DNA of 64,000 nucleotides, taken from contig NZ_QWEQ01000019.1 in the NCBI RefSeq assembly GCF_009936045.1, positions 1 to 64,000 on the forward strand, read 5' to 3'. The stretch's first letter is position 1; each line of letters begins with the position of its first letter. Under the pieces are notes generated by a model, which saw only the letters and a program-made list of their open reading frames with translations, was not told the DNA's origin and did not search any database. Below are positions 7,513-53,191 of the stretch, one piece after another. The translations under genes were made by a program, and so were the position numbers. This stretch comes from Emergencia sp. 1XD21-10 (lineage in GTDB: Bacteria > Bacillota > Clostridia > Peptostreptococcales > Anaerovoracaceae).

Positions 7513-7609
7513 GCTCATATTTGCAATGCCAAAATCTATAGCCCTTGTGGCTGCGGCAGCCATATATAGCAGCATGGCAAAGGCATGAAAAATATCATTA
7601 GCCATCAAT

Positions 7610-7789
7610 ACTGACAAAATGATAGCAGAATGCAGGATTTTGTCAGTAAATCGTAAAGAATCCATCTTAATACGCCTGAAATCCTGACAGAACTGACAAA
7701 ATCAAAAATAATTGTCAGTATTGGCAGGAATTTTGAAAGAAACACTGACAAAACTGACATAAATCTAAAAAGCTGTCAGTTTTGTCAGT
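7610..7789. repeat. Intergenic triple-hairpin block of CTGACA repeats (copy A)
   Basis: Nine copies of CTGACA/TGTCAG lie in 180 bp. They form three successive inverted repeats: 7610-7619 with 7638-7647 (10 of 10), 7683-7699 with 7712-7728 (14 of 17) and 7744-7759 with 7774-7789 (16 of 16). Within arms the unit is doubled with a 9-bp period, as in CTGACAAAACTGACA. Two more blocks of almost the same length and design lie at 48155-48343 and 52870-53048. No coding frame fits it. The remaining part of the 7467-7908 gap holds only a terminator and a promoter. Confidence 0.8.
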
Positions 7790-7845
7790 TCCAGAAAATC
7801 ATTAAACGTTTTTCGTGCGTTTGCCGTGTATAGCAGGAAGAACAC

Positions 7846-27282: not shown

Positions 27283-27321
27283 AAAACAAACTGCCAATGT
27301 CCCCGCAGGTCCATTGGCAGT
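27283..27321 (-). terminator. Riboswitch expression-platform terminator of thiC
   Basis: ACTGCCAATG (27290-27299) pairs perfectly with CATTGGCAGT (27312-27321); on the minus strand the stem is followed by TTTGTTTTTTT. It sits just after the TPP aptamer and 50 bp before the thiC start, the expected place for ligand-dependent termination. Confidence 0.85.
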
Positions 27322-27333
27322 ATACTCGTCAAT

Positions 27334-27417
27334 ATTTCCCTACGTTGGCATTATCCAAATCAGGTTGCAGGTCGAAGCAGTATCAGCTCCCTCTCAGCCC
27401 ATTACTATGAGCTCCCT
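27334..27417 (-). ncRNA. TPP riboswitch (THI element)
   Basis: Read on the minus strand, the aptamer has the conserved GGGCTGAGAGG, then ACCTGATTTGGATAATGCC and AACGTAGGGAA, the hallmark segments of THI elements, closed by GAGCTC-type outer pairing. With the terminator at 27283-27321 it would switch off thiC when thiamine pyrophosphate is plentiful. Confidence 0.95.
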
Positions 27418-27436
27418 TTTTTATATTTATATATTT

Positions 27437-37423: not shown

Positions 37424-37470
37424 AAAATGACCGCATCGCTCTATAAATTAGCGTTTGCGGTCATTTTTTT
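37424..37470 (+). terminator. Intrinsic terminator of the antiporter gene
   Basis: Perfect 12-bp stem AAAATGACCGCA (37424-37435) with TGCGGTCATTTT (37456-37467), an inner CGCT/AGCG pairing, and a run of seven T. The remaining part of the 328-bp gap to glnS holds no gene. Confidence 0.88.
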
Positions 37471-37655
37471 ATTTTTTGTAACCGCGATTTTGACCGTAAC
37501 TAGAAAAAATGACTCAAATGCGGTCACTTTTTCCATCTATTGCACTCAAAAGACATCTCACCGCTCCTTCTGTTCTTTTACATACTACCACAATTACCTC
37601 CCTGCTTCAAGATTTATTTTCCATAATTGTAAAATAAACCCATAAATTTTAAGTA

Positions 37656-47956: not shown

Positions 47957-48004
47957 CCTCCTACAATTGTAGTATTCTTATCTATATACTACAATTGTAG
48001 GAGG
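47957..48004 (-). promoter_or_regulatory. BlaI-type double operator over the blaI-cca promoter
   Basis: CTACAATTGTAG occurs at 47961-47972 and 47989-48000; the flanks extend this to an exact 19-bp inverted repeat (47957-47975 and 47986-48004). On the minus strand the upstream operator supplies the -35 TTGTAG (47994-47989) and the downstream one the -10 TACAAT (47971-47966), exactly 17 bp apart. Confidence 0.85.
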
Positions 48005-48154: not shown

Positions 48155-48343
48155 ATTGACAAATTCTTGATTTTTCTTCAATTTTGTCAATAAATCAAGA
48201 TTTTCACTCTAAAATACCGGCTATTTCACCCTTGTTTTTGACAAATTGGACAAATTTCTGCAAAAATGTCAATTCTGTCAAGGTTTTTCACCGAAAACAT
48301 TGCCCGAATTGACAGAATCACGATTTTTTGTCAATTTTGTCAA
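48155..48343. repeat. Intergenic triple-hairpin block of TTGACA repeats (copy B)
   Basis: Three inverted repeats follow each other: 48155-48163 with 48183-48191 (9 of 9), 48238-48252 with 48267-48281 (13 of 15) and 48307-48314 with 48329-48336 (8 of 8). The unit is TTGACA instead of CTGACA, again doubled with a 9-bp period (TGTCAATTCTGTCAA, TGTCAATTTTGTCAA). A further pairing, 48165-48173 with 48192-48200, would compete with the first hairpin. The rest of the 48005-48500 gap is GC-rich non-coding sequence. Confidence 0.72.
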
Positions 48344-52812: not shown

Positions 52813-52869
52813 TGGGAATACAGCAATGTGCCAAGGTGAACACACGAAAAAGTTTTAAATTTCTATGTC

Positions 52870-53048
52870 GCTGACAAAACTGACATTTTTTTAGTTTTTT
52901 GTCAAATCTGTCAGCATTTTAGCTAAAAACGCTGACAAAACTGACAAATTCTTTTGATTTTGTCTGCTTTGTCAGGATTTTAAGAATATGAAACCTAATT
53001 CTTCACGATTTGCTGACAAAATTCAGCAAAATCCAAAATTTAGTCAGC
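52870..53048. repeat. Intergenic triple-hairpin block of CTGACA repeats (copy C)
   Basis: Three inverted repeats: 52870-52885 with 52900-52915 (13 of 16), 52932-52948 with 52959-52975 (15 of 17) and 53012-53023 with 53037-53048 (11 of 12). CTGACAAAACTGACA, the exact unit of copy A, occurs at 52871-52885 and 52932-52946. The block lies between the promoter of the EamA gene and the end of the deacetylase gene. The rest of the gap carries only the hairpin at 53154-53191. Confidence 0.8.
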
Positions 53049-53153
53049 GTCGATGGGTGAATGCTCTTTTCATGTGTTTACCGCAGGCAGCGCCTAGTCT
53101 GATCGAGCAGGCGCTGCCTCGCAGACCCTGCTCAACCCGCTAAAGTGCAGACA

Positions 53154-53191
53154 AGCAGCGCGCCCGGTGGATTCCCACCGGGCGCGCTGCT
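53154..53191 (-). terminator. Very GC-rich 17-bp perfect hairpin after the deacetylase gene
   Basis: AGCAGCGCGCCCGGTGG (53154-53170) pairs perfectly with 53175-53191 around a 4-base loop. It lies 38 bp past the stop of the last gene in the deiminase operon. There is no U-tract on the minus strand, so it may protect the mRNA end rather than terminate alone. Confidence 0.6.

Follow-up and report, generated by a model that had tools for sequence, protein, structure and literature searches.

Arrays of short inverted words inside and beside ISAs1-type elements of the Emergencia group

Word arrays in the window and the element around copy A

The window, that is, the whole stretch of 64,000 nucleotides of Emergencia sp. 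1XD21-10 (genome G000) that was analysed, carries arrays of short inverted words at four loci, whose neighbouring genes are unrelated in function from one locus to the next. The features of copies A, B and C and of the array at 37.4 kb are listed below, with the strand given where one applies.

7565 to 7572: left copy of the target-site duplication of copy A, 8 bp, TATAGCAG
7573 to 7591, forward strand: left terminal inverted repeat of copy A, matching 17 of 19 bases of CACGGCAAACGCATGAAAA
7611 to 7646: H1 of copy A, outer inverted word pair (CTGACA...TGTCAG)
7684 to 7727: H2 of copy A, doubled inverted word pair
7745 to 7788: H3 of copy A, doubled inverted word pair
7810 to 7828, reverse strand: right terminal inverted repeat of copy A, 18 of 19
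7829 to 7836: right copy of the target-site duplication of copy A, TATAGCAG
Neighbours of copy A: S15 peptidase and GerE-type regulator
37428 to 37526: TGACCG array, two inverted pairs 63 bp apart, overlooked in the preliminary description and found by a word-blind scan
Neighbours of the 37.4-kb array: amino acid permease and class I tRNA synthetase
48156 to 48190: H1 of copy B (TTGACA...TGTCAA)
48238 to 48281: H2 of copy B
48300 to 48343: H3 of copy B, first unit degenerate, with a 9-base stretch absent from the G008 orthologue
Neighbours of copy B: penicillinase-repressor protein and oxidoreductase subunit
52832 to 52850, forward strand: decayed terminal repeat of copy C, 14 of 19
52871 to 52914: H3 of copy C (element reversed)
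52932 to 52975: H2 of copy C
53013 to 53047: H1 of copy C
53067 to 53085, reverse strand: decayed terminal repeat of copy C, 15 of 19
Neighbours of copy C: EamA transporter and polysaccharide deacetylase

A preliminary description of this DNA had seen in block A (7611-7788) three hairpins made from nine CTGACA/TGTCAG hexamers, with a 9-bp period in the doubled units and a perfect 16-bp stem in the last hairpin (7744-7759 with 7774-7789), all of which was borne out. The two further blocks of three hairpins that it reported were recovered at 48156-48343 and 52871-53047, the latter in the opposite orientation, but the CTGACA core that it took to be common to all three is not, as block B is built on TTGACA. 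Its placement of the blocks outside genes holds in that they are intergenic, with the exception of small chance frames over B (100 aa) and A (78 aa and 51 aa, counting frames of at least 30 aa). The terminal repeats bounding A and C fall outside the coordinates that it gave. CTGACA occurs 57 times in the window vs 27.5 +/- 4.6 times in the shuffled window, and the pattern TGACAAAAYTGACA has 21 matches genome-wide, with 0 for the reversed control pattern. Two other inverted repeats lie close to the blocks: a perfect 19-bp repeat, CCTCCTACAATTGTAGTAT, at 47957-48004 before the penicillinase-repressor (BlaI/MecI-type) gene, which is likely an operator, and a perfect 17-bp G+C-rich hairpin at 53154-53191, just downstream of copy C, which is terminator-like.

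Block A forms the interior of a non-autonomous transposable element, 256 bp long (7573-7828), whose terminal inverted repeats lie outside the hairpins and have the consensus CACGGCAAACGCATGAAAA. The sister species G008, collinear with the copy A locus and 86% identical to it, has an empty site there, reading GCAGCCATATATAATCGGAAGAACAC with a single target copy where the window reads TATAGCAG-element-TATAGCAG. A second empty site was provided by element L094, with a different inside, which is also missing from G008 and leaves a clean single target; a further element, L101, occurs in G008 in an internally deleted form and is seemingly absent from G004, where the alignment is less clean. Target duplication was examined at 27 distinct end pairs lying 80-620 bp apart with each end matching at least 15 of 19 bases, a set in which a few pairs come from other genera and one orthologous pair is counted twice. 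The mean identity of their flanks was 0.836 vs 0.458 for re-paired flanks (highest 0.552 of 500), and flanks reached 0.875 or more in 16 of the 27 vs 0.72 expected from re-paired flanks (at most 4); the remaining 11 fell below 0.875, some of them with weak or no duplication. The duplications seen were 8, 9 and 10 bp long. Copy A thus combines the marks of a MITE, namely, terminal inverted repeats, a target duplication, short length, the lack of a transposase gene and an empty site, and mobility by insertion is demonstrated.

Ends of the ISAs1 type and the spread of the copies

The ends match those of ISAs1-family insertion sequences of the same order at 16-18 of 19 bases (G043, G161 and G032). 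Eight ISAs1 loci were examined, and both ends were found in four of them, which represent three different elements: a 1481-bp ISAs1 element of G043 (NCBIfam NF033564, 399 bits), flanked by a duplication of 10 bp, and one element each in G161 and G032, the ends being alike in all three. G032 belongs to the family of the window's organism. An exact target duplication was not found at the two G161 copies examined. Target duplications of the ISAs1 family range from 8 to 10 bp, as do those seen here. Candidate donors with like ends exist elsewhere in the order, and an autonomous element with the same ends, a further mark by which MITEs are recognised, was not found in the same genome. No ISAs1 transposase was detected by protein and model searches in 13 same-genus draft genomes (73-99% complete), so the mover is absent, lost or unassembled. 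A parent insertion sequence carrying word arrays was also considered and rejected, as no two end repeats (0-3 mismatches) in the four genomes searched faced each other at a distance of 1-3 kb. Likewise, no autonomous relative with word arrays was found, and a geometry scan of the ISAs1 loci gave no array with another word, TGACA-type matches falling outside the output of that scan. The elements described here differ from ISAs1 itself in having no transposase gene inside, and the sequence read at the ISAs1 locus L106 shows no TGACA.

Of the 61 genomes searched for the doubled-hairpin pattern, four carry it, namely, G000 and its congeners G004, G007 and G008. Single pattern matches outside the genus occurred in one Chloroflexi assembly and one Novosphingobium assembly, and a viral origin was set aside, because viral contigs gave no exact match to the pattern. 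Further copies were found with a sequence-only model of the H2-H3 core, which gave 54 matches in G000, 42 in G004, 26 in G007 and 99 in G008; among the other same-genus genomes, it matched once in G006, twice in G010 and not at all in seven more. Because the palindromic core tends to match both strands, matches were halved, and as scoring covered 150 candidates in each genome, the results are lower bounds: at least about 27 copies in G000, the window's genome, about 21 in G004, about 13 in G007 and about 50 in G008. This multicopy occurrence and the fixed architecture confirm that the blocks belong, as had been proposed, to a defined repeat family and are not a chance pattern. Elsewhere, full copies carry a fourth hairpin that is the mirror image of the first. 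The full plan, H1-H2-H3-H4, is nearly mirror-symmetric, with H1 and H4 as single inverted pairs of 35 bp, H2 and H3 as doubled pairs of 44 bp, and the words of an inverted pair about 29 bp apart; H4 is missing from many copies, A included. The 61 cores compared below were taken with H2 and H3 each matching at least 15 of 20 and lying 59-64 bp apart, so that their H2-H3 distance of 61/62 bp is partly imposed by the selection. Among 20 distinct G000 copies examined (L052 being the same as L057), 16 could be classified by their neighbouring genes, which are tandem for 10 copies, convergent for 5 and divergent for 1.

The arrays and the ends are separable. Copy C is a decayed copy, and copy B is an array without ends, as no terminal repeats were found around it. 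A recognisable pair of ISAs1 ends was likewise not found at L025, L040, L159 or the CGGACT, TGCATA and TTGTGCA arrays, with a single 14/19 end match at one TGCATA array, while in L315 and L023 of the GCACCA family the ends are decayed and the words intact. In copies that were collected by their words, this suggests that words may outlast ends. The end-less arrays B, L009, L025, L040 and L159 have loops and edges in common (CRTTGACAAAT ... TTGTCAA), which gives the impression of spread by another route, and no target duplication was seen at them by eye.

Other composite structures with ends of this type were also observed. For instance, L102 (G007:C47:436-1005) is a 570-bp mosaic with ISAs1-type ends, one part with TGACA and one with GGCGC, and in L050:1352-1399 (G008:C11) the palindrome GATGATCATC is spanned by two back-to-back ends of ISAs1 type, as though two elements had been joined end to end. 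Another ISAs1-ended family (L085, L094, L101, L055 and L059) contains GGTACT/AGTACC and folds over much of its length; the array plan was not demonstrated in its geometry.

Constant geometry, changing words

Between copies, the NTGACA cores have a median identity of 90%, a value biased upwards because the copies were gathered by their words. The 48-bp outer spacers are 35% identical between copies (27% for shuffled letters), and the 38-bp ones are 53% identical in a set of fewer copies that are perhaps closer kin. Outer spacer length, sought over a wide range, was 38+/-1 or 48+/-1 bp in 69 of 73 cases; the length of the spacers is thus kept, and their sequence mostly is not. The words within a copy also agree with one another, as all eight units have one first base in 41 of the 61 cores, and unit pairs had an identical first base in 1486 of 1708 comparisons vs at most 902 in 2000 shuffles. 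TTGACA is the -35 box of promoters, and a promoter reading was set aside, since CTGACA predominates in 16 of the 61 cores and GTGACA in 7. Change of the word at orthologous sites is concerted. At the site L002/L145, most unit first bases have switched between G000 (mostly CTGACA) and G004 (TTGACA), and the H3 loop shows a one-base difference despite this switch; at L038/L124/L171, CTGACA in G000 corresponds to TTGACA in both G008 and G004. Orthology was judged from flanks that are 82-90% alike, and at L038/L124/L171 the bases adjacent to the array align poorly.

Elements with the same ends also carry other words, such as CGCCAT (L086) and GCACCA (L071 and L075), in inverted pairs 28-29 bp apart; part of this inspection was restricted to words unlike TGACA. 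The pair-to-pair distance in these elements is 62 bp, and distances of 51, 102 or about 177 bp also occur; pairs directly adjoin an end in L071 and L075, and H1 and H4 stand just inside the ends in TGACA elements. A word-blind scan was defined by geometry, with a 5-base word, its inverse 27-31 bp on and both again 60-64 bp on. In the window, it returned A, C and the new array at 37428, with 0 matches in 10 shuffles, and it missed B, in which the units are partly degenerate. The TGACCG word of the new array was found again in G008 (L279, L281 and L312) and elsewhere in G000 (L288), and a CGGACT array was found in G006 (L149). On sampled sequence, the matches numbered 3 for G000 (399 kb, 2 elements), 8 for G008 (400 kb, 6 elements) and none for either G005 (400 kb) or shuffled sequence. 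Between 0 and 3 matches were obtained with decoy geometries, with the exception of spacing 50-54 (7, 5 and 1), which is one helical turn below 62. With both span and spacing left free and 6-base words, G008 was led by the combinations 35/145 and 34-35/62, and the G000 sample and G005 were led by other repeats (in G000, span 16-20 with spacing 67-68); no 6-base match at span 30-40 and spacing 59-65 was found in the G000 sample.

Except in this free search, the pair span was fixed at 27-31 bp, both in the word-blind scans and in a survey of spacings from 36 to 200 bp and the period analysis. The survey revealed two more words, TGCATA and TTGTGCA (the latter read by eye), and spacings in G000 and G008 that lie mostly near 42, 52, 62, 72, 83, 92, 125, 136, 145, 155, 177 and 187 bp, with off-phase spacings of 70, 89, 98, 128 and 133 bp in G000. 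Over the distinct non-TGACA spacings of G000 and G008, 22 in number and including the off-phase 89 and 98, the best period was 10.40 bp (R 0.677). This value was reached by 2 of 20000 jittered sets, an optimistic figure because neighbouring spacings (e.g., 51-54) are not independent. A first phasing test with five classes (276/20000) was only suggestive. Taken separately, G000 and G008 have period peaks at 10.35-10.45, and G005, where most events stem from one 94-bp repeat and its double, peaks elsewhere, yet at 10.4 its value is high too (0.856, or 0.616 when only distinct spacings are counted). The spacings of the arrays fit a DNA helix period of about 10.4 bp, with the pairs facing one side of the helix. 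Other periodic repeats were met in these samples, namely, 94-bp-period repeats with inverted words in the control genome G005 (L339:16437-17171, L343 and L345) and palindromic repeats with 67/68-bp spacing in the C22/C34 sample of G000, which are CRISPR-like by spacing only.

Pairing was examined in 121 distinct doubled hairpins and in 69 distinct outer hairpins of exactly 35 bp (48 H1, 23 H4). In the doubled hairpins, the first unit base was paired in 108 cases vs 65.4 in shuffles and in 107 vs 56.0, and the second unit base showed a slight excess (118 vs 112.4). The base outside the hairpin (47 vs 34.8) and the innermost loop pair (54 vs 41.0) also exceeded the shuffles; the latter is the one of seven loop positions that covaries, the other six being at or below chance. 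The three bases between units showed no covariation, with 81, 69 and 65 paired vs 80.0, 73.7 and 71.3 expected. In the outer hairpins, the excess lay at the first base (59 vs 49.4) and at the base outside (50 vs 28.6), and it was slight at the two positions that follow the word (64 vs 61.3 and 67 vs 65.1). A model of local hairpins and one of long-range pairing fitted equally well (34 copies); H2-H3 long-range pairing in place of local hairpins obtained an equal score, so pairing cannot decide between them. Compensated changes at two pairs in H1 of the G008 orthologue of copy B speak for pairing. At curated thresholds, Rfam had no match at the blocks, and its sole match in the window is a TPP riboswitch (27318-27428, reverse strand); matches to miRNA models in L097 were far below the cut-offs and were taken as chance palindrome matches.

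A possible docking platform and its alternatives

The element itself is an ISAs1-type MITE; what is unusual are the arrays, phased and diverse in their words, that occur within such elements and next to them. With bacterial MITEs the element shares small size, lack of coding capacity, terminal inverted repeats, target duplication, intergenic dispersal and empty sites, whereas it differs from them in the helix-phased word array inside, in the other words of related arrays and in the arrays that have no ends. A closer likeness in organisation is offered by the CACTA (En/Spm) elements of plants, in the account of which TNPA binds subterminal words that differ between families, short words are repeated inside conserved ends and non-autonomous copies keep the words (PMC2613891). 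Here, in contrast, the ends are of ISAs1 type, and the array fills the element and also exists without ends. To our knowledge, there is no TNPA-like protein in this system. REP/BIME palindromes are described as protein binding sites in some bacteria (PMC2817692). Many intergenic palindromes per genome are common to both systems. However, REP/RAYT elements are not known to have terminal repeats or target duplication, both of which are present here. A REP/RAYT relationship was set aside; the sole Y1 match in the genome (PF01797, L103, G000:C13:94111-94413, IS200/RAYT-type) has one internal stop. A search of one open-access library found no description of such arrays, and we know of no named family with this phased, word-diverse design.

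We consider it likely that the NTGACA array of this ISAs1-type MITE is a docking platform for a protein and that the arrays of other words are read by related proteins. Copy A is a non-autonomous ISAs1-type element whose inside presents a 6-bp word, NTGACA, as inverted pairs about 29 bp apart. Standing near multiples of the helical repeat, the pairs would lie on one face of the DNA, where an oligomeric DNA-binding protein could sit and contact several pairs at once. For the TGACCG, GCACCAT, CGCCAT, CGGACT, TTGTGCA and TGCATA arrays, the readers would be related proteins that differ in specificity, with a word that drifts and a geometry that stays, and ISAs1-type transposition may be the vehicle that has spread some of the arrays. 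No binding protein for the words was found. As to the bound complex, we would lean towards one of transposition or maintenance, like that at subterminal repeats, with host regulation or chromosome organisation as the main alternative. A pure role in transposition misfits some copies because there are arrays without recognisable ends (B, CGGACT, TTGTGCA and TGCATA), and since words persist without ends, host regulation stays close behind.

The preliminary description had left room for an RNA family, in which the hairpins of a transcript act as terminator, attenuator or small RNA. In its favour, folding gives stable stems, cells changed on both sides number 49 vs 21.3 in shuffles, the copy B orthologue has its two compensated pairs, and G-T is commoner than A-C in the unpaired loop of the outer hairpins (e.g., 24 vs 3). 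Against this stand the concentration of covariation at the first unit base, the equally good fit of long-range pairing and the lack of any excess over shuffles in how many pairs are changed on both sides (10 vs 9.2, 34 copies). Moreover, mismatches in the units and spacers of H2 and H3 are 59 G-T and 82 A-C, in a test weakened by the arbitrary orientation of part of the copies, and there is no covariation between units. As the blocks have no Rfam match, mainly the first unit base covaries, together with the base that flanks the outer hairpins, and the geometry fits the DNA helix, the RNA family was not upheld; we regard it as improbable, and from their sequences the hairpins appear to behave as DNA words rather than RNA stems. 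It is less far-fetched, but still unlikely, that this is an ordinary MITE whose inner palindromes are a by-product, that is, fold-back DNA kept by template switching with no binding protein. Its ends, duplications and empty sites are typical of such elements, one loop position and bases beside the words covary, and the MITE transcripts of bacterial families covered by one review are described there as forming long stem-loops (PMC2229807). However, template switching would repair whole arms, and the bases between words and six of the seven loop positions do not covary; a by-product would also leave unexplained the like geometry with different words and the 10.4-bp period.

A somewhat stronger rival, although we still rate its chances as rather low, is that a host regulator reads the word and that the MITEs spread its sites as a regulon or silencing system. 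The persistence of words without recognisable ISAs1 ends, as in B (with an orthologue in G008) and L315, would agree with it, as would copies at orthologous places in two or three species and the position of 15 of the 16 classified distinct G000 copies away from divergent genes. However, neutral insertions are also expected to avoid gaps between two promoters, the copies in the window have no neighbouring gene function in common, and many copies are present in only 4 of 13 same-genus genomes.

Compared with these alternatives, the docking platform remains our preferred reading, and a wider one may be built on it, to which we give slightly less than an even chance. The Emergencia group would possess diversified helix-phased arrays, with at least seven words in one geometry, whose pairs stand whole helical turns apart and whose proteins have co-evolved with the words, so that within an array the words change jointly, and ISAs1-type elements would be one of their vehicles and not their origin. 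A fixed geometry with changing words would be the expected trace of co-evolving DNA-binding proteins. If so, the different words within one genome and the joint word switches between sister species would amount to a natural experiment on how DNA recognition changes, and the geometry alone would offer a word-blind way to seek such arrays in other genomes.
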